Shown here: in pieces, positions 47,084 to 61,277 of the stretch | How the letters are laid out: each line of letters begins with the position of its first letter | Numbering within the stretch: the stretch's first letter is position 1 | NCBI RefSeq assembly: GCF_009258225.1 | Contig: NZ_CP043617.1 | Location: forward strand, 1,054,001-1,118,000 | DNA length: 64,000 nucleotides | Source of the DNA: Sulfurimonas lithotrophica | Lineage (GTDB): Bacteria > Campylobacterota > Campylobacteria > Campylobacterales > Sulfurimonadaceae | Direction: 5' to 3' | Notes under the pieces: model-generated | Databases searched by the model: none | What the model was told of the DNA's origin: nothing | Seen by the model: the letters and a program-made list of their open reading frames with translations, nothing else | Position numbers and translations under genes: made by a program

Positions 47084-48331
47084 ATGAAAAAAGTTTATTT
47101 TAAAACATTTGGCTGTCGTACAAATCTTTATGACTCACAAGTTATGATTGGTGCACTTAAAGACTATGAAGTAACACAAAATGAAAATGAAGCTGATGCA
47201 ATAGTGATAAATTCTTGTACGGTTACAAACGGAGCTGATTCGCACGTTCGCACATATATCTCCCATATAGAAAAGACATCAAAAGCAAAGATATTTTTAA
47301 CAGGTTGTGGAGCTCATACCAAAGGTGAGAGTTTACTCTCTGCAGGTAGAGTACATGGAGTATTCGGTCAGAGTGAAAAATTAAAGATAGATTCACTTTT
47401 AAGTGAAGAAAAGCCGTATTATAATCCAGGTGATTTAAACCATATAGATAATGCTATAGTAGATGATTTTGTAGGTAAGAGCAGGGCGTTTATCAAAGTC
47501 CAAGAGGGCTGTGATTTCCGTTGTTCCTACTGTATTATCCCGTATGTTCGCGGAGATGCAAGAAGTATGAATGAAGAAAAAATACTCGAACAAATTTCAC
47601 GCCTCGCATTAAACGGTTTTGGAGAATTTATTTTAACAGGTACAAATGTCGGAAGTTACGGAAAAGGTAATAACTCGTCTATGGCAAATCTGATGAAAAA
47701 AATATCTCAAATAAGAGGTGTTAGACGTATTCGTTTAGGAAGTATTGAACCTATCCAAATTACGGATGAGTTTAAGGAGGTACTAGACGAGCCTTGGCTT
47801 GAAAAGCATCTGCATATTGCTCTTCAGCATACATCTCCTAAAATGCTAAAACTTATGAATAGAAGAAATGTATATAAGCAAGACAGAGAACTTTTTGAAT
47901 TTTTATCAAACAAAGGTTTTGCAATTGGGACTGATTTTATTACCGGACATCCGGGTGAAAGTGAAGAGATATGGAAAGAAGCCATAAAAAATTTAAATGA
48001 ACTTCCACTTACGCATCTACACGCTTTTACATACTCAAAACGTGATGGAACACCATCTGCAAATATGAAACCTGAAGTAAACGGTAAACTAGCAAAAGAG
48101 AGACTTCATCAAGTTGAATCAATTATAAAAGAAAAAAACTATAGCTTTAGAAAAAATAACAATTTGCCACTTGATGTTTTGATAGAAAGTCAAAGAGAGG
48201 ATGGTCTTTATCAGGGCTTTGATCAGTTTTTTAATAAACTTCTTTTAAAATCAGATGAAGATATGCTTGGAAACTGGATAAGTGTTGATAAGTATGAAAT
48301 CAAGAGGGAGAATAACTATGCTGAACTTTAA
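47084..48331 (+). CDS. mtaB: tRNA (N6-threonylcarbamoyladenosine(37)-C2)-methylthiotransferase MtaB
   Basis: This 415-residue radical-SAM enzyme converts t6A37 to ms2t6A in tRNA. The N-terminal UPF0004 domain begins FKTFGCRTNLYDSQ and has further cysteines in VINSCTVTN and FLTGCGAH for one cluster. The radical-SAM cysteines are in EGCDFRCSYCIIPYVRG. The length and GCRTN motif fit MtaB better than MiaB or RimO. A short C-terminal TRAM-like part remains. It begins directly after the mscS stop and overlaps the FtsH-like gene by 14 bases. Confidence 0.93.
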   Translation: MKKVYFKTFGCRTNLYDSQVMIGALKDYEVTQNENEADAIVINSCTVTNGADSHVRTYISHIEKTSKAKIFLTGCGAHTKGESLLSAGRVHGVFGQSEKLKIDSLLSEEKPYYNPGDLNHIDNAIVDDFVGKSRAFIKVQEGCDFRCSYCIIPYVRGDARSMNEEKILEQISRLALNGFGEFILTGTNVGSYGKGNNSSMANLMKKISQIRGVRRIRLGSIEPIQITDEFKEVLDEPWLEKHLHIALQHTSPKMLKLMNRRNVYKQDRELFEFLSNKGFAIGTDFITGHPGESEEIWKEAIKNLNELPLTHLHAFTYSKRDGTPSANMKPEVNGKLAKERLHQVESIIKEKNYSFRKNNNLPLDVLIESQREDGLYQGFDQFFNKLLLKSDEDMLGNWISVDKYEIKRENNYAEL

Positions 48332-49958
48332 AACTAATAGACTTTTAATTTACATATCGTCATTTTTTATTATTATCTTGGTTCTTTTTGCAGTGTTTAG
48401 AGATAACTCTGAATCTATAACACTTCTTGAGGCAAAAAAAATCTTAAATGAAAAAAGTGTAGAAAACGTAGTCGTAACAAAAGAGTATGTATTTTTAAAA
48501 ACTCAAAATGGCTTATACAAAATAGCTTCTTCACAAGTAAATCCAAGTATGTTTGAAGGTTATAAAGTTGAAGTGGGAAATGAAAGTAATATAATCCTTT
48601 ATCTTTTTCTTCTTGTTTTTATATTGGGTCTTGGTTCTTTAGGAATTAAACTACTTTTAAATCATTTAAATAAAGATCTTCCAAGCCTAAGGCAGTCTTC
48701 TAGACCGATTATGGGAGAGAGTGTTAGAATAGAATCTATAAAGAGTGATGTGGGTTTTGATGATATAGGCGGAATAAGTGATGTTAAGGTTGAACTTGAA
48801 GAGATAATTGACTTTATGAAAAATCCAAAGCGTTATAAAAGTTTTGGAGCTCGTCTTCCTCGTGGCGTATTATTAGTAGGTCCTCCGGGTGTGGGTAAGA
48901 CTATGATAGCAAAAGCTGTTGCAAGTGAGGCGGATGCTCCGTTTTTTTACCAAAGCGGTGCTTCTTTTGTTCAAATATATGTAGGTATGGGTGCAAAAAG
49001 GGTTCATGAGCTTTTTAATGCTGCAAAGAAAAATGCGCCGTCAATTATATTTATCGATGAGATAGATGCAGTAGGTAAAAAAAGAGACGGTCAAAGAAAT
49101 GATGAACGTGAAGCTACTCTAAATCAACTTCTTACTGAGATGGACGGTTTTGAAGCATCCAGCGGTGTTATAGTAGTGGCTGCTACAAATAAAATAGATG
49201 TTTTAGATGATGCATTGCTTCGTGCAGGGCGTTTTGATAGACGTATATTTGTTGAATTACCTACAAAAATAGAGCGTGCATCTATACTTGCAAAATATTT
49301 GGATAAAGTTCCACATTCGCTTGATGTATCTGTTGTAGCGAATATGACTGTAGGATTTAACGGTGCATCTTTAGCTGCACTTGTAAATGAAGCTGCTCTT
49401 TTATCACTTCGTCAAAATGATATGCAAGTAACACTTGAACACTTTGAACAGGTAAAAGACAAAGTGATGTTTGGTAAGAAAAAACTTCAAATATTATCTG
49501 ATAAGCAAAAACAGTATCGTATAACATATCAAGCTGCTAAAGTTATAATAGCAACATATTTTGATATACCTTTTGAGAAGTTGATTTTAAGTAATGAAAG
49601 GTTGACTCCTGCTACGGATGAGCCGTTTATAAAACATGAACTTGAAAATAGGGTTAAAATGCTTCTAGCGGGTACTGTAGCTTGTTCTATGAGATATAGC
49701 GAACATTCAAGCAGTGCAAAACAAGACTTGGATGAAGCCAAAGAGTTGGTTGAAAAGATGATTAACGAGTATTGCATGGGTGAAAATATTTATGCTTCTG
49801 ATAATGAAAAAGAAACTACTATGAATAAACTTTATGAAAATGTATCAAAGTTGTTATCATCATTGTCTTCTGTAATGCAAAGAGTTGAAGGTGATTTAAA
49901 CGAGTTTGAAAGTATTTCAAAAAGAAAAGTAAAAGAGTATCTTGATGAAATTCTTTAG
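48318..49958 (+). CDS. FtsH-like AAA+ membrane protein lacking the zinc protease motif
   Basis: The 546-residue protein has the FtsH layout: helix (about 9-27), a small periplasmic domain, second helix (about 92-112), then an AAA+ ATPase. Walker A (GPPGVGKT, 188-195), Walker B (IIFIDEID, 243-250), the FVQIYVGMGA pore loop and RAGRFDRR are intact. The protease domain is present but its HEAGH zinc site reads QAAKV (405-409), so it should not hydrolyse protein. The third-ligand aspartate position is kept (D470). The ATG at 48318 gives a normal start with GAGGGA upstream; the frame extends to 48282. H. pylori has a shorter ftsH-like gene at the same place (from memory). Confidence 0.9.
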   Translation: MLNFKTNRLLIYISSFFIIILVLFAVFRDNSESITLLEAKKILNEKSVENVVVTKEYVFLKTQNGLYKIASSQVNPSMFEGYKVEVGNESNIILYLFLLVFILGLGSLGIKLLLNHLNKDLPSLRQSSRPIMGESVRIESIKSDVGFDDIGGISDVKVELEEIIDFMKNPKRYKSFGARLPRGVLLVGPPGVGKTMIAKAVASEADAPFFYQSGASFVQIYVGMGAKRVHELFNAAKKNAPSIIFIDEIDAVGKKRDGQRNDEREATLNQLLTEMDGFEASSGVIVVAATNKIDVLDDALLRAGRFDRRIFVELPTKIERASILAKYLDKVPHSLDVSVVANMTVGFNGASLAALVNEAALLSLRQNDMQVTLEHFEQVKDKVMFGKKKLQILSDKQKQYRITYQAAKVIIATYFDIPFEKLILSNERLTPATDEPFIKHELENRVKMLLAGTVACSMRYSEHSSSAKQDLDEAKELVEKMINEYCMGENIYASDNEKETTMNKLYENVSKLLSSLSSVMQRVEGDLNEFESISKRKVKEYLDEIL

Positions 49959-51923: not shown

Positions 51924-52265
51924 ATGACACTTGTTGAATTATTTACAGACTATATAGTAAACAGAAAAGATTTAAGAGATTATGTACAAGAGAGAAAAAC
52001 TCGAAATGAAAGAGGGGAGTTTAACGATACAAAACTTATAACGGCTCAGGAAAACCTTGATAAACTAAAAAAGGAAGACTTAAAGACTTATGAGCAGATG
52101 TATATGATTTTAGATAAGATTATGAAAGCAGATAGAGGTCATTATGTTGAATACTCTATAAATTTTACTAAAGCTATCTTAAAAATGTACAGGGGTCATT
52201 CTACACCCGAGGATGTTTGTAAAGAATATGCAAAAGAGTTGACACACCGTTATAATGACGCATAA
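51924..52265 (+). CDS. Small conserved-looking protein of unknown function
   Basis: The family is not recognised. The 113-residue protein has no signal peptide or membrane helix, is rich in charged residues and looks all-helical (LRDYVQERKTRNERGEF, ENLDKLKKEDLKTYEQMY, HYVEYSINFTKAILKMYRGH). It has a -10 box and an AAAGGA ribosome binding site, supporting expression by itself. It precedes the Sdh-like fusion gene by 56 bases, a gap with its own -10-like TAAAAT. Confidence 0.6.
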   Translation: MTLVELFTDYIVNRKDLRDYVQERKTRNERGEFNDTKLITAQENLDKLKKEDLKTYEQMYMILDKIMKADRGHYVEYSINFTKAILKMYRGHSTPEDVCKEYAKELTHRYNDA

Positions 52266-52321: not shown

Positions 52322-53455
52322 ATGAATAATAAATTGAATATTGAAGTTTATAAATTTAACCATGAACAAGATTATCTTCCATATTACAAATATTACAGTA
52401 TAGACTATAGTTTGAATGATACGCTTGATGATATATTAACCAATATAAATTCAGTAGAAAAGCTAAGCTATGAAAAAGGATGTAACGTAGTTATTAATAA
52501 TTTGTTCGTAAATACATCTGAAACTATCGAAAATATTATTAAAAAAACAGGGAACAATCTAACTATAGAGCCTATTAGTAAGTATCGTTGTAAAAATGAT
52601 TTAATAATCAATAAAGATGATTATTTAAACAAATTAAATAGATTTAATCAGTTTTTGAATGATGAAGAATTGAATAAATACAAAAAATCCCTTGAATTAA
52701 TGTATTACTCTTCAAATACTATTAATTATAATAGAGATTATATCGGCGATCACTCATTAGTAATAGCTTATGATATTATTAATACAAAGCCGGAATTTAA
52801 AGAATCTATTTTAAATATATTGTCCGAAGCTAATACAGGTATTTATCACTACACTTCATCAAAAAATCGTTTATTTTCTTATGATGCTAATATAGAAGAA
52901 AAAGTTGAATTTTTATTTGAACTAGTTACTGAATATACAAAACCATCTTTAACTCAAAATAAATATATATCAAAATTATATGAAAAGTTTAAAAAACAAG
53001 AGATAGAAACAAAAACTGTAATTTCTCAAAATAATGTAGAGATTAAGCAAAGTTTTGAAGGTTTTAATATAGCGTATTATAGTGTTGATAGAGATTTAGA
53101 TATAGAAAGCTTTATAGAAAAATCAAAAGCTTCTTTAGTTAAGACAAATATGCAACACGCAAATCTTCCAAAAAGAGTTTATAAACAAAATACTAGGCTT
53201 ATTTATATGATTGCTGCAGATATACTTTTAGAAGCTAAAGATAACAATGCCGATTTTATTATTATTAAAGACGAAACTTTAGTCGATGTTTTTGATAAAG
53301 AACAAGATAAACTAGCTTCACTTAGCGGTAGAGAGATTGATCTAAGTATCATAACTTACAATCAGTTTTTAATGCTATTAAACGGTGAAAAAGATAAAGC
53401 CGTTTTAGGGCTTGATAAAAATAAAGTTAAAATTGAATTTTTGGCTTCGGCTTAG
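52322..53455 (+). CDS. SdhB-SdhE-like fusion protein lacking most iron-sulfur cysteines
   Basis: The 377-residue protein parallels the genuine SdhB and SdhE encoded nearby. Residues 6-112 follow the SdhB ferredoxin domain (EVYKFNHEQDYLPYY, GNNLTIEPIS, DLIINKDDYLNK). Residues 113-215 follow the second SdhB domain in order and length. Residues 248-375 follow the second half of SdhE (DNNADF, SGREIDL, then the tail). Of the cysteines that hold the clusters in SdhB and SdhE, only Cys54 is kept in position; Cys90 is the only other. It cannot bind the usual clusters, so a structural or regulatory role is more likely. From memory a DUF5644 family in campylobacters may be the same; a search is needed. 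Confidence 0.8.
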   Translation: MNNKLNIEVYKFNHEQDYLPYYKYYSIDYSLNDTLDDILTNINSVEKLSYEKGCNVVINNLFVNTSETIENIIKKTGNNLTIEPISKYRCKNDLIINKDDYLNKLNRFNQFLNDEELNKYKKSLELMYYSSNTINYNRDYIGDHSLVIAYDIINTKPEFKESILNILSEANTGIYHYTSSKNRLFSYDANIEEKVEFLFELVTEYTKPSLTQNKYISKLYEKFKKQEIETKTVISQNNVEIKQSFEGFNIAYYSVDRDLDIESFIEKSKASLVKTNMQHANLPKRVYKQNTRLIYMIAADILLEAKDNNADFIIIKDETLVDVFDKEQDKLASLSGREIDLSIITYNQFLMLLNGEKDKAVLGLDKNKVKIEFLASA

Positions 53456-53474
53456 AATTAAATAGAAATTCTAA
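53452..53474. terminator. AT-rich dyad between convergent genes
   Basis: TTAGAATT pairs with AATTCTAA around a 7-base loop. The dyad covers the stop codons of the Sdh-like fusion gene and of the exonuclease III gene. A weak bidirectional terminator is possible. Confidence 0.35.
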
Positions 53475-54234
53475 TACCTACAGGGCAGTGATCTGAACCG
53501 GCTATATCATCTAAGATAAATGCGTCTTCAAGATTCTCTGCCAAATCTTCAGATATAAAAAAGTAATCAATTCTCCAGCCAACGTTTTTTACCCTTGCAT
53601 TTGCACGATATGACCACCATGAGTATCTATCTAACTCATCACCGTTTACATATCTAAATGTATCTATATAGCCGTATTCAAGAAGTTTATCTATCCATTC
53701 TCTTTCAATCGGTAAAAAACCTGATGTTTTAGAATTGGCTTTTGGATTTTTTAAATCAATCTCTTTATGTGCTGTATTTACGTCACCACAAATTATTATA
53801 GATTTTCCCTCTTCTTTTAGTTTTTCACAATGAATTAAAAAATCATCATAAAATTTCATTTTATAATTTAGTCTTTCTTCATCTTTTTGCCCATTTGGAA
53901 AATATACGTTAAAAAGTACTGTATCTCCAAAGTGATTCTCAATGATTCTTCCCTCGTTTAATATATCTATATGATTTGCATTAGAAGTATTGTTTGATTT
54001 TATTGATGAAAACGTTGCCGTACCGCTATAACCTTTTTTTTCTGCCGAGTTTACATCCAATTCTAAGAATTCTTTGTCAAAAAGATTATCAGGAATTTGT
54101 TCTTTAAGAGCTTTTATCTCTTGTAGGCATAATATGTCCGGTTGACGTTCATCTATCCATTTAAGCGCTTCTTTGTTAGCTACGGCACGTATTCCATTTA
54201 CATTCCAAGATATTATCTCTATTGAATCAGACAT
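53458..54234 (-). CDS. xth: Exodeoxyribonuclease III (AP endonuclease)
   Basis: This 258-residue enzyme cleaves DNA at abasic sites and degrades strands from the 3' end. The family motifs are all present: ISWNVNGIRA, CLQEIKA, FPNGQKDEERLNYK, CGDVNTAHKEIDL, WSYRANARVKNVGWRIDYF and SDHCPVGI. The first asparagine and the glutamate of LQEIK bind the metal. It is transcribed alone, lying between the Sdh-like fusion gene (convergent) and the sdh operon terminator. Confidence 0.96.
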   Translation of the reverse strand: MSDSIEIISWNVNGIRAVANKEALKWIDERQPDILCLQEIKALKEQIPDNLFDKEFLELDVNSAEKKGYSGTATFSSIKSNNTSNANHIDILNEGRIIENHFGDTVLFNVYFPNGQKDEERLNYKMKFYDDFLIHCEKLKEEGKSIIICGDVNTAHKEIDLKNPKANSKTSGFLPIEREWIDKLLEYGYIDTFRYVNGDELDRYSWWSYRANARVKNVGWRIDYFFISEDLAENLEDAFILDDIAGSDHCPVGIRISI

Positions 54235-54280
54235 TTATTGTTCCATATGTATTAAATTTATTTGGGAAATTATATCAAAA

Positions 54281-54315
54281 GAAAAAAAGAAGATTCTTGG
54301 AGAAACCAAGAATCT
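54281..54315 (-). terminator. Rho-independent terminator of the sdhABE operon
   Basis: On the minus strand AGATTCTTGG, loop TTTCT, CCAAGAATCT forms a perfect 10-base-pair stem followed by TCTTTTTTTC. It lies 18 bases after the sdhE stop and ends the operon. Confidence 0.9.
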
Positions 54316-54332
54316 AAAAAAGTTAAAGTTTT

Positions 54333-55214
54333 TTAAACAAAGTTAACTTTAGCAACGTGATGTTTAAGACCAAGCTCTTCTGCAGAACAACCTAGTGCTA
54401 AACCGACCATTTGTTGCATGTGTAAAACAGGAAGTTCAACTTCACGCCCTATAGCTTCAGATGCATGGTGAGTTTGAGTATCTAGTTTTAGATGACAAAG
54501 TGGACACGGAGTTACCATCCAGTCCGCATTGTTATCCATAGCTCCGGCAATTGCATTACCTGTTAAAGTTGCAGCTGTTTTTGGAGCTTGAAGCTCAACA
54601 TGAAAACCACAACATTTGTTTTTTTCGTTATAGTCAACATTTTGACCGCCACAAGCTATAATCAAGTCATCTAACGAAGTAGGGTTGTATGCACTCTCTG
54701 CAGTTTTATGAGTTTGATTTTGAAGTTCGGACGGACGTATATTATGACATCCGTAAAACGGTGCAATATTAAATTGACTAAGTGGAGTTTTTACCATTTG
54801 TGCAATTTTATCAAGACCGATATCATCGATAATAGCATATAAGAAGTGAGTAACTTCAGATGTGCCTTTATATTCTAGTCCTACTTCTGCAAGTTTTTCG
54901 TTAACTTCTGCTTTTAGTTTAGGATTTGAATCTAAACGGTGTTTAGTCATAGCAGTATTTAGTTGACATGTATTACATATAGTTACCATAGTAAGACCAT
55001 GTTTCTCTGCATATGCGATATTTCTAGCATTTAGTACTAATGATAAAAAATCATCATAATCCTGAAGGTGTGAAGCTCCACAACATGAAGCTTCAGTTAG
55101 TTCTATAAGCTCAATTCCAAGCTTATCGGCAACTGCCATAGTTGACATCATTTGTTCAGGAGTACTTTGCTTAGCTGTACAGCCGGTAAAAAGTGCGTAT
55201 TTTAATTTTCCCAT
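54333..55214 (-). CDS. sdhE: Succinate dehydrogenase / fumarate reductase subunit E (HdrB-like, CCG domains)
   Basis: This 293-residue subunit links the SdhAB part to the membrane in type-E enzymes. It has two CCG (cysteine-rich) domains with Cys12, Cys44-45, Cys80, Cys83, and Cys156, Cys188, Cys201-202, Cys237, Cys240, the pattern of HdrB that carries an unusual iron-sulfur cluster. No classical heme-b membrane anchor gene is present. Bioinformatic names sdhC and mfrE are also used. It lies 9 bases after sdhB, and a strong terminator follows. Confidence 0.9.
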   Translation of the reverse strand: MGKLKYALFTGCTAKQSTPEQMMSTMAVADKLGIELIELTEASCCGASHLQDYDDFLSLVLNARNIAYAEKHGLTMVTICNTCQLNTAMTKHRLDSNPKLKAEVNEKLAEVGLEYKGTSEVTHFLYAIIDDIGLDKIAQMVKTPLSQFNIAPFYGCHNIRPSELQNQTHKTAESAYNPTSLDDLIIACGGQNVDYNEKNKCCGFHVELQAPKTAATLTGNAIAGAMDNNADWMVTPCPLCHLKLDTQTHHASEAIGREVELPVLHMQQMVGLALGCSAEELGLKHHVAKVNFV

Positions 55215-55223
55215 TGTTATCTC

Positions 55224-56204
55224 CTAAAACTTAACTGTTGATGATGATTTAACAAGTTTTTTAATCTCATCAAGGTTCTCTGATTTTGTAATTGCCCATG
55301 GTGGAACAATTTTACCTTTTCTGAACATTTTAAGTGCAACAGGTATATGTTTAACAATAGCCGGTCCTTCAGAATATAAAACAAGTCCACCCTCATCAAG
55401 GATACCGTTTTTAGCAATAGAATGTTTAAATCCTACAGCGTGACGAGTAGCTACATTACTTGTTGCAACACCCTCTTTAAATAGCATCTGGTGAAGTTTC
55501 GTAATCTTATCGATAGGATTAACTTCTTTTGGACATACTTCTGCACATTCAAAACATTTAACACAGTCCCAAACACCTTGGCTTTCAGAATGAAGCTCAG
55601 TAAGTCTTTCTTTATGAGCTTGGTCACGTACATCAGCTTCAAAACGATAAGCTTTTGCAAATGCCGCAGGACCCATAAAATTCTCGTTTATTTCAACGAC
55701 AGGACATGCATAGTGACAAGCTCCACATTGGATACAAATGTCAGCATCTAAAAGTGCTTCGGCTTCATCCTGAGTTACAATATGCTCATGTTCTGGGTTT
55801 TCATCAACATCTGAGATTAGGAATGGGTGAATTGCATCGTGTTTTTGCCAGAAATCACCTTTATCTATAATCATATCTTTGACTGATCGTTTAATACTTA
55901 ACGGCTCAATTGTAAGTTCGTTACCAAATAACTCAATCATTGAAGTCATACTTTCTTTACACGCCAGTGTACTTCTACCGTTTACTTTTATAGCACATGC
56001 TCCACATATGCCGTGACGACAGCTTCTTCTATAAGAAAAACTTCCGTCGTGATCCCATTTAATTCTGTTTAGTATATCTAATACAACTTCTTCAGAAGTT
56101 ACATCCATTTCATAATCTTCATAGTATGGAAGATAATCATCATCAGCGTTAAAACGAAATACTTTAAAGTTTACTTTTTGTGTTGTAATACCATCTGTAC
56201 TCAT
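55224..56204 (-). CDS. sdhB: Succinate dehydrogenase / fumarate reductase iron-sulfur subunit
   Basis: The 326-residue subunit passes electrons between FAD and the quinone side. It has the [2Fe-2S] cysteines 62, 67, 70 and 82 in SCRHGICGACAI, and two ferredoxin-like sets, 157-167 (CIQCGACHYAC) and 214-224 (CVKCFECAEVC). The second set is of four cysteines in each, indicating two [4Fe-4S]-type or a mixed arrangement. A C-terminal tail of some 60 residues is longer than in E. coli SdhB. It is 17 bases after sdhA and 9 before sdhE. It is the apparent template of the fusion gene at 52322. Confidence 0.95.
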   Translation of the reverse strand: MSTDGITTQKVNFKVFRFNADDDYLPYYEDYEMDVTSEEVVLDILNRIKWDHDGSFSYRRSCRHGICGACAIKVNGRSTLACKESMTSMIELFGNELTIEPLSIKRSVKDMIIDKGDFWQKHDAIHPFLISDVDENPEHEHIVTQDEAEALLDADICIQCGACHYACPVVEINENFMGPAAFAKAYRFEADVRDQAHKERLTELHSESQGVWDCVKCFECAEVCPKEVNPIDKITKLHQMLFKEGVATSNVATRHAVGFKHSIAKNGILDEGGLVLYSEGPAIVKHIPVALKMFRKGKIVPPWAITKSENLDEIKKLVKSSSTVKF

Positions 56205-56221
56205 AACTCTACCTCCCTTAC

Positions 56222-57934
56222 CTAGTATGTTCTTGCTTTAAGTTCATGTTTGCCAAGAACGACATCCATGTAATCGAGTGAAATATCACCGTTTTCATCC
56301 ATATAAGCCATCGTGTGCTTTAAAAAGTTCTCATCATCTCTTTGCTCAAAGTCTTCTCTATAGTGTGCACCACGACTCTCATTACGAGCTATTGCACTCT
56401 CTACGATAAATGCAGAGTAATCAATCATATGACCAAGCTCGATAGCTTCTTGAAGTTCTGTGTTAAATACTTTAGATTTGTCTTTAATACGGATGTTTTT
56501 AAATCTAGCTCTTATCTCTTTTACTTTTGCGACAGCTTTTTCAAGAGTCTCTTTTGTTCTGAATGCACCTGCATTTTCAGTCATAGTATCTTGAAGTTCA
56601 ACACGAAGACCAGGTACAGTTTCGTCACCATTGTTATTTAGTATAAAATCGATTTCTGCCAATGCAGTAGAAGCATCTGATTCGGTTGCCTCACGCAACT
56701 CGATATCATCAACTTCTGCAACCATCGTTTTACCGACATAACGACCGAATAAAAGCGCTTCAAGAACTGAGTTTGCACCAAGACGGTTTGCTCCGTGAAC
56801 AGATACACATGAACACTCACCTGCTGCATAAAAACCTTCTACAAACTCATTATTATTTTTGCGTACATTACCTGCGATATTTACAGGTATTCCACCCATA
56901 GAATAGTGTGCCGTAGCTGAGATTAGGATTGGTTCTTTAATCATATCAAGACCTAAGAAAGTGATAGCTAAATCACGAAGTTCAGGAAGTCTTTCCATGA
57001 TTAAGTCTTTTCCTAAGTGAGTAACATCAATATAAACAGCATCTTTTCTTGGACCGACACCGCGACCTTCGCGAATCTCATTTAAAATTGCACGAGACAC
57101 AACATCACGAGAAGCCAATTCCATAGCGTTTGGAGCATATTTTTCCATAAAACGCTCACCTTCTGAGTTAAAAAGACGCCCACCTTCACCACGGGCAGCT
57201 TCAGAGATTAAAACACCGTTTCCTGAGAGACCTGACGGGTGGAATTGAACAAATTCCATATCTTCAAGCGGTAAACCGTGACGAGCAACAATAGAAAGAC
57301 CGTCACCGGTATTTGCGTGAGCGTTAGAATTGATTTTATATGAGCGAGCATATCCACCTGTTGCAAACATAACTTGTTTACAGTTGAAAATAGCCATTTG
57401 CATATCACGAATGTTAAAAGCTATAACACCTGATACTTTCCCGTCTTTATAGATGATATCAGCAGCATACCACTCATCCCAAAATTTTACACCTACACGA
57501 TGGGCTTGCTCATAAATTGTTTGTAATAATGTAAGTCCTGTTCTGTCTTTTGCATAACAAGCACGAGGTGAGCTTTGTCCACCAAAAGGGCGTTGTGCGA
57601 TTTTTCCATCTTTGTTACGGCTGAATGCCGCACCCATTCTCTCTGCCCAGCGAATAGTTTCCGGTGCATTTTTACACATAAACTCAACCGCATCTTGATC
57701 GGCTAGATAATCAGCCCCTTTAACAGTGTCAAATTCATGAAGTTCAACAGAATCTTCATCACTAAAAGCTGCGTTTACGCCACCTTGAGCTGCACCTGAG
57801 TGACTTCTTAAAGGGTGGAGTTTTGTAATAACCGCGACTTTTTTTCCTGCATTTTGCAACTCTCTTGCTGCTGCACATCCCGCAAGACCTGCACCAACAA
57901 TAATTGCATCGTAAGTATAAATAGGAATACTCAT
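56222..57934 (-). CDS. sdhA: Succinate dehydrogenase / fumarate reductase flavoprotein subunit
   Basis: This 570-residue subunit oxidises succinate or reduces fumarate with covalently bound FAD. It shows [18 protein letters not shown], the flavin-linking histidine in [13 protein letters not shown], then [17 protein letters not shown], a catalytic arginine region and SMGGIPV. There is no twin-arginine signal, unlike the periplasmic MfrA of Wolinella and Campylobacter, so the enzyme faces the cytoplasm. Direction of the reaction is not fixed by sequence. A strong AAGGAA ribosome binding site precedes the ATG; it is first of the sdhABE operon. Confidence 0.95.
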
Positions 57935-58072
57935 TAGCTTTCCTTAAAAATTAGAATATAATATAAAGTGATTTTACCGAAATTAGTCTTGTTGTAGATT
58001 AAAATAAGACAAACCGAATATGAACTACAACAGTGTTACAAAATAACACATTTGAGGTCAAAATATGGTGTG

Positions 58073-59275
58073 TTAAATATTCACACCTTCCATATCTCTT
58101 TTTTGTGAAATTCTATTTTTACCACCTGATTTTGCGAATGCTAAAATTTGTTTAGCTTCTGCTATGGCATTATTTAATACTACATTGTTTGGTTTTATGT
58201 AGAAACCTCCGGATACGGTTATTTGAACAGGTACTTTTGTCTGAGTTACAAATTTTAATTCCGAGATAGCTTCACGAACAGCTTCCATATCTTTGTAAGC
58301 TTTTTCTTTTGAGTCTCTGGATAATATTACGGTAAATTGATTATAGTCCGTTCTTGCTATAACATCTGTAGGTTGTTCAAATAAAGATATTGTATATGCT
58401 ATTTTTTTAAGAGCGGCTTGAGAAAATTCTTGATTAAAAGCTCTATTTGTTTTTGAAAAATTATCTACTTCTAAAATAGTAACAGATGTAAAATTATTCT
58501 CTTTAAAATTTTTCTTTAGAGCATATTCGGAAACCAAACCTTTATTATTGTTGATTTTAGTTATTGGGTCTATGTTGTTTGGATTGTCTTTTACATCAGG
58601 TTTTTTTCTCATTCTAATAGAGATAGAATCTGCTTCTAAAGTACTTATTTGATAGTCTTTTTTACTTTTAGAAGGTGCTTGTAGGTATGCAATGTCATTA
58701 TATATTTTTTTAAGTCTGGAGTAATACCATAGGAAACTAAAAGTTACCAGAACAAAAGCAACTATAGCTATTTTCATCATAAATTGAAGTTTTTGTTTGT
58801 TATAGCCTACATTTTTAAATATTATTGAGTTTATTTGTTTTTCTAAAGTTATATAAGCTTTGTCAAAATCAGATTTAACGTCATGTGATTGATTCGGGGA
58901 TTTATAGTATGTATAAGCTTTTTCATTAAAAATCTCAATTAGATTAGACAACTTTTCTAAATCATTGTTATACTCATTTGAATTATTTAAAAAGTATTTT
59001 CCCGTAATATCGTATTCGTAGAGTTCTCTTAATTTATTGATTTGGTATTGTAACTCTGTGCTTTTACCGTTATACTGAATTAGAGCAAGTTCTAAATCTT
59101 TTTTATCTATTTGTTTTAATGTTTTAATTATTTGTTTTTGTTGATTTAATATGTCAGTCTTAACAAAAGAGTTATTTTGTTCAAACGTAAATAATACGGC
59201 TGAAGCAGAAATTAATGTAAATATACTAAAAAATACCAATATGTTTTTAAATACATTTTTTATAGATATTTTCAT
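58073..59275 (-). CDS. Membrane protein with degenerate GGDEF domain
   Basis: The 400-residue protein has membrane helices at about 10-30 and 168-188, with a periplasmic, mostly helical region between them. The cytoplasmic part is a GGDEF fold (DPITKINNNKGLVSEYALK, then ARTDYNQFTVIL and SGGFYIKPNNV) in which the catalytic motif GG[DE]EF has become DYNQF. It should be inactive as a cyclase and may act as a receptor or structural element. Its gene is upstream of nothing on its strand but a 138-base gap before sdhA, and is divergent from thiL. Confidence 0.8.
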   Translation of the reverse strand: MKISIKNVFKNILVFFSIFTLISASAVLFTFEQNNSFVKTDILNQQKQIIKTLKQIDKKDLELALIQYNGKSTELQYQINKLRELYEYDITGKYFLNNSNEYNNDLEKLSNLIEIFNEKAYTYYKSPNQSHDVKSDFDKAYITLEKQINSIIFKNVGYNKQKLQFMMKIAIVAFVLVTFSFLWYYSRLKKIYNDIAYLQAPSKSKKDYQISTLEADSISIRMRKKPDVKDNPNNIDPITKINNNKGLVSEYALKKNFKENNFTSVTILEVDNFSKTNRAFNQEFSQAALKKIAYTISLFEQPTDVIARTDYNQFTVILSRDSKEKAYKDMEAVREAISELKFVTQTKVPVQITVSGGFYIKPNNVVLNNAIAEAKQILAFAKSGGKNRISQKRDMEGVNI

Positions 59276-59344
59276 AAATGTTTCTCCAATTAATGCTATA
59301 ATTTTGATATTATAACATATATTAATTATATCTGGTTATATCGG

Positions 59345-59350
59345 TATAAT
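59345..59350 (+). promoter_or_regulatory. -10 box (TATAAT) for thiL
   Basis: TATAAT lies 28 bases before the TTG start at 59378 in the divergent gap between the degenerate GGDEF gene and thiL. A T-rich stretch without a -35 consensus is upstream. Confidence 0.5.
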
Positions 59351-59377
59351 TTCAGTAATTATTTAAAAGAAAAATAT

Positions 59378-60196
59378 TTGAATTTAGAAGACTATTTTAT
59401 TTCACGTTTTAATAATGTTAGTATTGGAGATGATGGGGCATGTATAGAGAACTTTGTATATTCTAAGGATGCTTTTTTTGAAAATGTTCATTTTAAAACA
59501 GAATGGATGAGTTATTATCAAATAGCTAAAAAAGCCATGTTTGTAAATATTTCCGATGCAATAGCTATGAATGCAAAGCCGATGTACGCACTTTTAGCTG
59601 TTGCAATGCCAAAAACAATAACAAAGCATCAGATGTCTGAACTTGTACGTGGGTTTGAAGATATTGCAAAAAAATATTCCGTAGAGATTATCGGCGGCGA
59701 TACCATTGCTAACACTAAACTTGATATTACCGTTACGATTATTTCAAAAACTAACAAACCGCTTTACAGAAAAGGTGTTAGGAAAAATGATGTTTTTGCT
59801 TACACGGGCGAACTTGGAAAAAGTAAAAAAGATTTAACCAAACTTCTAAGAGGCGGAAAGATAAATGAAAAGTCAAAATTTATAGATATAAAGCTAAGAG
59901 ATAAGTTTATATCCCAAAATATGAGATTTTTGAATGCCGGAATGGATATTTCAGATGGACTTTTTACTGATTTGGATAAAATGATGCATGTAAATAACAT
60001 AGGTATAAAATTTTATAAAAATATAGATAAGAAAATCGGCTGCAGCGGTGAAGAGTATGAGATGTTGATCTCCTTTGATAAACGGCACAAAAAAGCTATG
60101 ATTAGGCGTTCTAAATTATCTAGAACAAAACTGACTATTTTTGCAAAAGTAAAAAGAGTTAAAAATATTTTTAAATGTAAGGCAAATCATTTTTAG
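59378..60196 (+). CDS. thiL: Thiamine-monophosphate kinase
   Basis: ThiL phosphorylates thiamine phosphate to the cofactor thiamine diphosphate. The 272-residue protein is shorter than the usual 310-330 residues but has the expected order of motifs: SIGDDGACI, NISDAIAMNAKPMYALLAVAMP, IIGGDTIAN, DVFAYTGELGKS and GMDISDGLFTDLDKM. The shortening is mainly in the C-terminal part. The start is TTG. It lies 7 bases before truD; the same pair is known in C. jejuni (from memory). Confidence 0.88.
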   Translation: MNLEDYFISRFNNVSIGDDGACIENFVYSKDAFFENVHFKTEWMSYYQIAKKAMFVNISDAIAMNAKPMYALLAVAMPKTITKHQMSELVRGFEDIAKKYSVEIIGGDTIANTKLDITVTIISKTNKPLYRKGVRKNDVFAYTGELGKSKKDLTKLLRGGKINEKSKFIDIKLRDKFISQNMRFLNAGMDISDGLFTDLDKMMHVNNIGIKFYKNIDKKIGCSGEEYEMLISFDKRHKKAMIRRSKLSRTKLTIFAKVKRVKNIFKCKANHF

Positions 60197-60203
60197 GAAA
60201 GTA

Positions 60204-61277
60204 ATGGACAGATTTTATTCTTTAAACCACGCAAGTATAGATTTTCATTTTAAACAAAGTGCTCGTGATTTTGTTGTTGATGAAATTCCGCTTTATGAGT
60301 TTAGCGGTGAAGGTGAGCATCTTATTTTGCATGTAAGAAAGAAAAACCTCTCTACGATGGAACTTGTTGGCATCCTAGCAAAATATCTTGGAATTAAAAA
60401 CAAAGAGATAGGATATGCGGGCTTAAAAGATAAACATGCAATGACAAAGCAATATATCTCCCTTCATAAGAAATATGAAGAGAAACTAGATAAATTTGAG
60501 CATGAAGGTATTAAAATACTTTCAAAAACATATCATAACAATAAAATCAGAATAGGGCATCTTAGTTCAAATAGGTTTTACATAAGACTTAAAAAAGTAA
60601 ATCCTACGGATGCAAAAAAAATTGATGAAGCATTAAACATTATATCTAAGCAGGGAATGCCCAACTTTTTTGGTTATCAACGATTCGGTAATGATGGAAA
60701 CAATCATATAGACGGTGAAAAAATTGCAAAAGGTGAAAAAAAAGAGCGTAACGTAAAGGTAAGAAAACTTTTAATCAGCGCGTACCAAAGTCATCTTTTT
60801 AATCTTTGGTTAAGCAGAAGATTGGAGATAAACTCTTTAGTATCAAGTTTTAATATTAAAGAGTTAGAAAATTTATTGAATATGCCAAAAACGGAAATCA
60901 AAAAGCTAAAAATACAGGAACATCCATTTAAACTTATAGAGGGTGATATAATGGAACATTATCCTTATGGAAGACTTTTTGAATTTGATCAAAGTGAAGA
61001 TGATTTTAAAAGATTTTACAAAAGAGATATAAGCGTTACCGGTCTGTTGTGCGGAAAGAAAACCAGAATTGCCACAGGGTTGGCCAGAGATATAGAAAAA
61101 GATTTTGATGACGATATAAACGCAGACGGTGCAAGAAGATACGCTTGGGTTTATCCAACGGATATAGAAGGTAGGTTTAATAACCAAGAAGCCCAATATG
61201 AACTAAATTTTACACTTCCAAAAGGCTCTTACGCAACGGTTCTTATAGAAGAAATAGCTAAACGTAGGCTTATTTAA
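60204..61277 (+). CDS. truD: tRNA pseudouridine synthase D
   Basis: TruD converts U13 of tRNA to pseudouridine. The 357-residue protein shows DFVVDEIPLYEFSGEGEHL, the catalytic aspartate in IGYAGLKDKHAMTKQY, GMPNFFGYQRFG and LISAYQSHLFNLWLSRR, all typical. The insertion (TRUD) domain lies in the middle. It follows thiL by 7 bases and precedes psd by 24 bases in the same direction. Confidence 0.96.
   Translation: MDRFYSLNHASIDFHFKQSARDFVVDEIPLYEFSGEGEHLILHVRKKNLSTMELVGILAKYLGIKNKEIGYAGLKDKHAMTKQYISLHKKYEEKLDKFEHEGIKILSKTYHNNKIRIGHLSSNRFYIRLKKVNPTDAKKIDEALNIISKQGMPNFFGYQRFGNDGNNHIDGEKIAKGEKKERNVKVRKLLISAYQSHLFNLWLSRRLEINSLVSSFNIKELENLLNMPKTEIKKLKIQEHPFKLIEGDIMEHYPYGRLFEFDQSEDDFKRFYKRDISVTGLLCGKKTRIATGLARDIEKDFDDDINADGARRYAWVYPTDIEGRFNNQEAQYELNFTLPKGSYATVLIEEIAKRRLI

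Follow-up and report, generated by a model that had tools for sequence, protein, structure and literature searches.

A cluster-free SdhB-SdhE fusion protein of the DUF5644 family encoded beside the sdhABE genes of Sulfurimonas lithotrophica

The window analyzed here is a stretch of 64,000 nucleotides from Sulfurimonas lithotrophica (contig NZ_CP043617.1, positions 1,054,001 to 1,118,000). It carries the sdhABE genes of a type-E SDH and, close to them, an open reading frame whose ATG has the sequence AGGA 7 bases to its 5' side. The genes of this region and the parts of the encoded protein are as follows.

52322..53455, + strand: gene for the cluster-free SdhB-SdhE fusion, a 377-aa member of the DUF5644 family (open reading frame call, Pfam, hhalign, AlphaFold model, superposition)
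52322..52657, + strand: residues 1-112, almost certainly the N-terminal (Fer2_3) domain of SdhB with the [2Fe-2S] ligands gone and the cluster loop largely deleted (Pfam PF13085 2.5e-6; BLASTP E 2e-17; hhalign; ligand columns)
52643..52930, + strand: residues 108-203, DUF5644, almost certainly the SdhB dicluster domain without its cysteines (PF18712 5.9e-7; hhalign E 2.4e-5 alone; 0/200 shuffles; model 1-214 on FrdB)
53000..53452, + strand: residues 227-377, almost certainly the second CCG domain and C-terminus of SdhE/HdrB with the cluster motifs gone (hhalign E 5e-19; HdrB 5odc_B Z 17.4, 142 residues)
53458..54234, - strand: exodeoxyribonuclease III-type gene, which we take to be xth from its sequence, within a conserved block (query XthA)
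54333..55214, - strand: real SdhE, 12 Cys (Pfam and NCBIfam; Cys count)
55224..56204, - strand: real SdhB, 12 Cys (Pfam and NCBIfam; Cys count)
56222..57934, - strand: SdhA flavoprotein with the SHSGAAQGG motif (sequence)

Two other reading frames of the window may be mentioned. A 113-aa frame just upstream of the fusion gene (51924-52265, + strand) has only sub-cut-off matches (CdiI_4, 0.02), and 48282-49958 (+ strand) encodes an FtsH-like AAA protein that has a Peptidase_M41 match (1.5e-9), lacks the HExxH motif and looks catalytically dead.

In the 377-residue protein, Pfam finds Fer2_3 at residues 6-101 (2.5e-6), DUF5644 at residues 108-203 (5.9e-7) and, below the cut-off, HdrB-like_C at residues 288-366 (2.1e-5). 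The DUF5644 match scores 29.9 bits against a cut-off of 25, which places the protein in PF18712. NCBIfam gives weak N-terminal matches of the SdhB/FrdB type, the best at 6e-8 and far under the curated cut-offs, and a single weak match to Spx (0.0027). By BLASTP, the real SdhB of the window aligns with residues 2-112 at 33% over 122 positions (single-comparison E-value 2e-17) and the real SdhE with residues 289-374 at 23% over 86 positions (single-comparison E-value 2e-6). When a family alignment of 47 rows was compared with SdhB by hhalign, residues 4-202 fell on SdhB 10-241 with a pairwise E-value of 1.5e-30, and the C-terminal part of the family matched SdhE 141-293 with a pairwise E-value of 5e-19. 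The DUF5644 region alone matched the dicluster domain of SdhB (E 2.4e-5, probability 75.5, score 36.7); none of 200 column shuffles reached this score, the maximum being 21.1, and the same region had no match to SdhE (probability 0.8). Short segments named in the original prediction are also present in both, namely DYLPYY (residue 17, SdhB 23), LTIEP (80, SdhB 97), DNNAD (307, SdhE 227) and GRE (336, SdhE 256). The pattern D[YF]LPYY is found in 20 of 28 type-E SdhB proteins and 39 of 46 fused paralogues. DYLPYY was rejected as a mark of the SDH-linked members, since unlinked members have it too.

The AlphaFold model of the protein has a mean pLDDT of 91.1 and a pTM of 0.86. Foldseek placed the crystal structure 3KWL at rank 1, followed by FrdB/SdhB chains and, from rank 26, HdrB chains; ubiquitin-like structures were also among the structural matches. 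Residues 1-214 of the model superpose by VIA-align on FrdB 1kf6_B (Z 17.7, 204 residues, rmsd 3.7) and have the ferredoxin-like plus dicluster fold of SdhB/FrdB. Residues 227-376 superpose on HdrB 5odc_B (Z 17.4, 142 residues, rmsd 2.5) and represent one of the two CCG domains of SdhE/HdrB, the profile match being confined to SdhE 141-293. The protein had been proposed to read as an SdhB paralogue from end to end that continues into the second SdhE CCG domain, in the order of the operon, and a profile-profile search and a superposition had been named as the checks; profiles, AlphaFold model and superposition now agree on it. We are nearly certain that the protein consists of both domains of SdhB (residues 1-214) joined to the second CCG domain of SdhE (residues 227-377), without cluster ligands. 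Because the profile comparison, the shuffles and the superposition on FrdB point the same way, DUF5644 is best regarded as the SdhB dicluster domain without its cysteines. The family was already known as a DUF and its identity appears to be new; searches of the open-licence PMC literature, as distinct from subscription journals and preprints, yielded no account of a relation between DUF5644 and SdhB/SdhE.

The loss of the cluster ligands extends to the whole family. Cysteine occupies each of the 12 SdhB ligand columns in 28/28 type-E SdhB rows, whereas in 79 aligned family members (8 of the 40 loci of one set were left out as copies or wrong) it occurs at these columns in 0, 0, 1, 3, 0, 0, 0, 0, 9, 0, 1 and 0 rows, respectively. 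Most of the [2Fe-2S] loop is missing. Two cysteines remain in the window protein (54 and 90), of which just C54 lies on a ligand column in our alignment, so the earlier statement that 11 of 12 SdhB cysteines are gone is a fair one. The cysteine ligands of the three SdhB/FrdB clusters are thus not in place, and with no cysteine after residue 90 the CCG cluster motifs of SdhE/HdrB are absent as well, as had also been noted. Compared with the type-E SdhB (55224-56204) and SdhE (54333-55214), the protein has the fold, the order and many core residues in common but differs in the ligands, the [2Fe-2S] loop and the SdhE part, which is the second domain only. SdhB and CCG domains are also joined in one chain in TfrB of the methanogen thiol:fumarate reductase, where the cluster cysteines are present. 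The N-terminal part of the window protein matches TfrB (PRK06259) with an E of 1e-6 and the fusion is common to both, but the ligands are not; TfrB was outside the trees described below.

The family occurs in three forms: a short fusion as in the window, a long fusion of about 500 aa that is H. pylori-like, and two adjacent genes. The second gene of the split loci encodes 274-281 residues with 0-7 Cys in all 13 examined. For that of Sulfurospirillum arcachonense, the predicted model (pLDDT 83.9) has a complete HdrB fold with both CCG domains and superposes on HdrB 5odc_B (Z 28.8, 270 residues, rmsd 2.8) and on residues 231-495 of 3KWL (Z 27.8). By eye, the split SdhE-like members (L127:7686-8513 and relatives, alignment A4) have SSYxS with an invariant Ser in place of the former CxxC, as if the old cluster site had been put to a new use.

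The structure 3KWL was released in 2010 and is tabulated as of unknown function (PMC3397514, table entry). It belongs to the same family as the window protein by the PF18712 cut-off, by phmmer, where it is the best relative among solved structures (1.5e-11, ahead of E. coli FrdB at 8.7e-4), and by superposition on the model (Z 27.4, 365 residues, rmsd 3.5). The two differ in the first CCG-like domain, which is retained in 3KWL and in the split form of Sulfurospirillum but lost in the window protein. Since residues 231-495 match the complete SdhE-like model of Sulfurospirillum, 3KWL can be read as a whole cluster-free SdhB-SdhE. It is probably HP0468 of H. pylori, because the H. pylori-like genome in our sample (G153) has a single DUF5644 match whose protein (L053) reads nearly letter for letter as 3KWL, and HP0468 is named as a DUF5644 protein where the proteins shared by Helicobacter with sheathed flagella are tabulated (PMC9570263). 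The same genome was not among the SdhE matches in the NF042965 search. HP0468 is also listed as a hypothetical protein, a GWAS hit, that is upregulated by hydrogen (PMC6090961). In the excerpted text of a paper on W. succinogenes SdhABE (PMC2680327) no such factor is named.

The trees point to a single origin of each half. Of the 69 rows of the SdhB-half tree, the 31 that are paralogues are set apart by a single branch with support of 100/100, and a branch with 99/95 separates FrdB, MfrB, other SdhB and two SdhB of family f5 (perhaps Nautiliaceae, which is our guess) from the paralogue and the other type-E SdhB. The 29 paralogue rows of the SdhE-half tree (50 rows) form one group, also with 100/100. 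Paralogue rows are long branches; as FrdB rows are long too, it can be argued that long-branch attraction would draw the paralogue toward FrdB and not toward SdhB. The simplest reading is one duplication of the type-E sdhB-sdhE pair that took place within the Campylobacterota once f5 had diverged; by our presence criterion, none of the seven sampled f5 genomes has a family match. A recent local duplication is ruled out by the single old origin of each half; the family is an old one, known to Pfam and with a solved member. The proposal of a duplicated and fused sdhB-sdhE that has been retained therefore stands with regard to its retention by selection and not with regard to copying beside the present operon.

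Rates of divergence were compared over 15 loci. Across 105 pairs, SdhE averages 75% identity and SdhB 67%, against 40% for the paralogue, which is the lowest of the three in every pair. The dN/dS is 0.06-0.32 in 12 of 13 pairs (two of the 12 have dS above 1.8), and the remaining pair is saturated. The family evolves fast but under purifying selection.

The genes around the paralogue recur, whole or in part, as a block in the order xth-sdhE-sdhB-sdhA-(GGDEF)-thiL-truD (window 52322-61277 and compared loci), in which thiL and truD are names that we presume from the sequence. The paralogue lies before xth in the window, between xth and sdhE in either direction (L091, L092, L129; L073, L075), between sdhA and the GGDEF gene and divergent (L031, L071, L076, L078), upstream of sdhA in the same direction (L043, L044, L045, L077, L079, L114, L145, L201) or after thiL or truD (L121, L128, L202, L203). 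The next open reading frame in L043 is sdhA, and the stop codon of the paralogue overlaps it. The sole paralogue match in L199, L200, L204, L205 and L206 is inside sdhB itself, and the paralogue is absent there. By the gene tree, SDH-linked members have switched arrangement around the sdhABE-thiL-truD block six times or more while the gene stayed beside sdhABE. Thirteen of the 15 genomes with both the family and a type-E SDH have them within about 5 kb, and in the two exceptions (G210, G266) the genes are on different contigs. sdhA is within the fetched stretch at 20 of 76 paralogue loci. The alignment of fused paralogues (A3) holds 46 of 80 loci, the other 34 being split, cut, close copies or real SdhB (L141, L146, L149, L150). 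Campylobacter- and Sulfurospirillum-type loci have the gene beside thiL/truD and no sdhABE, which may reflect a loss of the formerly neighbouring sdhABE. No constant neighbour other than SDH and thiL/truD was found in the 40 loci compared, where neighbours differ between families. In the five Mfr-type genomes compared (G020, G023, G102, G194, G215), over 100 kb separates the gene from the mfr-type sdhE. One metagenome-assembled contig titled Fluviicola (L072) carries a Sulfurimonas-like sdhABE whose SdhA, SdhB and SdhE are 77-89% identical to those of the window, and it is probably mis-binned.

Occurrence was counted in 298 Campylobacterota genomes. The family was scored as present with a PF18712 match at E 1e-3 (156 genomes, 143 over the cut-off) or an A1 profile match below 1e-45 (34 more), the full A1 tally of 247 including real SdhB and SdhE. 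SdhE was scored as present with NF042965 below 1e-30 (116 of 140 matches at 1e-3), and genomes over the Mfr family cut-off (44) were classed as Mfr and the other 72 as type-E. One PF18712 place (G285 C19, L067) lies in a kinase-like open reading frame and was dropped, with G285 still counted through another place; as several genomes occur in both collections, once as a G and once as an L locus, not every row is independent. Outside the Campylobacterota the coverage was one collection scan and 14 control genomes. By these definitions the family is in 190 genomes and SdhE in 116, with both in 54, the family only in 136, SdhE only in 62 and neither in 46. The two are negatively associated (Fisher odds ratio 0.29, p 1.2e-6, kinship uncorrected). 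The family is present in 39 of 44 Mfr-type genomes and absent from 5, and present in 15 of 72 type-E genomes and absent from 57. A match to the SdhB/FrdB family is found in all 298 genomes, over the cut-off in 296.

These counts rule out a strict dependence on type-E SDH and make the originally suggested tie to the type-E enzyme doubtful. With 57 of 72 type-E genomes lacking the family and 136 genomes having it with no SdhE hit, it is not a dedicated type-E factor. Nor can it be required for type-E SDH, as those 57 genomes do without it and the FAD-attachment motif of SdhA is the same with and without the paralogue (SHSGAAQGG in 15/15 and 5/5 loci, respectively). From its distribution, the family could at best assist type-E SDH, which can dispense with it, and it still functions, in the old way or a new one, in genomes left without SdhE.

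With no SdhB-type cluster left through which electrons could pass, the protein would act by binding, and a structural role is more probable than one in electron transfer. The linkage to sdhABE and the retained SdhB scaffold make a complex II flavoprotein the likeliest partner, which would be SdhA, or FrdA/MfrA where sdhABE is absent. We consider that the gene product is best explained overall as a pseudo-subunit of complex II that docks on its flavoproteins as a holding or maturation partner, with a probability of roughly 0.4. It would dock in the place of SdhB and may hold the flavoprotein during folding, FAD attachment or flavin shielding until the cluster-loaded SdhB-SdhE or FrdB comes; the docking and maturation role taken by itself is tentative. 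Elsewhere, the niche of flavoprotein maturation is filled by SdhE/SDHAF2 (Pfam Sdh5), which would have the proposed role alone in common with the window protein; PF03937 is not among the Pfam matches of the latter at E up to 10. The niche seems open in this phylum, since a search for Sdh5 (PF03937) in 101 Campylobacterota genomes gave none, as against 2 of 14 controls. Several observations count against the role. The family is missing from 57 type-E and 5 Mfr-type genomes, and in the five Mfr-type genomes compared it is far from the mfr-type sdhE. Some genomes without the family and, judging from the absence of Sdh5 in the sample, without a known flavinylation factor still carry dhsB-type subunits. 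If the [2Fe-2S] loop is a main contact with SdhA, its removal weakens the case for docking in the manner of SdhB.

In the strongest rival explanation, the protein no longer belongs to complex II and its SdhB-SdhE scaffold serves as an adaptor for something else, such as the cell envelope, flagella or signaling, with the proximity to sdhABE a relic. This would fit the 136 genomes that keep the family with no SdhE hit and the Campylobacter-, Helicobacter- and Arcobacter-type neighbours, which are not SDH genes but, to judge from their sequences, thiL/truD, pepF-like and murA-like genes. The tabulation of HP0468 with the sheathed-flagellum proteins (PMC9570263) fits it as well. An adaptor is nevertheless somewhat unlikely, as 13 of 15 type-E genomes with the family keep the two together despite at least six changes of arrangement and no other constant neighbour has come to light.

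A decoy or regulator would compete with SdhB(-SdhE) for SdhA, or with SdhB for SdhE, and limit complex II under some conditions. The whole SdhB scaffold, and in the long and split forms the whole SdhE scaffold, is retained without clusters, the gene is optional among type-E genomes (15/72), and it is arranged separately at several loci, including the four divergent ones. Against this, genomes without the type-E enzyme keep the family, and the eight loci in which it is the first gene in the sdhABE direction hold a position that would be odd for an inhibitor, which leaves such a function unlikely. Less probable again is an accessory subunit without redox function that stays permanently on complex II or another respiratory complex and binds real SdhB/SdhE or the membrane: that the SdhB-like and SdhE-like parts are fused or adjacent suggests continued pairing, and the gene is linked to sdhABE, yet the 57 type-E genomes do without it and its sequence changes far more quickly than those of SdhB and SdhE. 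A decaying pseudogene or a chance resemblance, which fast divergence and patchy presence might suggest, is scarcely credible and is already contradicted by the open frame, the confident fold, the dN/dS values and the single old origin.

The results give an identity to a DUF carried by 190 of the 298 Campylobacterota genomes sampled and to the 3KWL structure, and they describe a respiratory electron wire that was copied and then kept without its metal. If the pseudo-subunit reading is extended to the family, a cluster-free type-E arm (SdhB plus all or half of SdhE) in many Campylobacterota, including Helicobacter and Campylobacter, would serve as a placeholder for the maturation or protection of complex II flavoproteins, replace a factor of the SDHAF2 type and have outlived its source enzyme; this broader proposal is rather doubtful at present. 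The identity of the family also makes testable the question of how the Campylobacterota mature their complex II flavoproteins without factors of the Sdh5 type.
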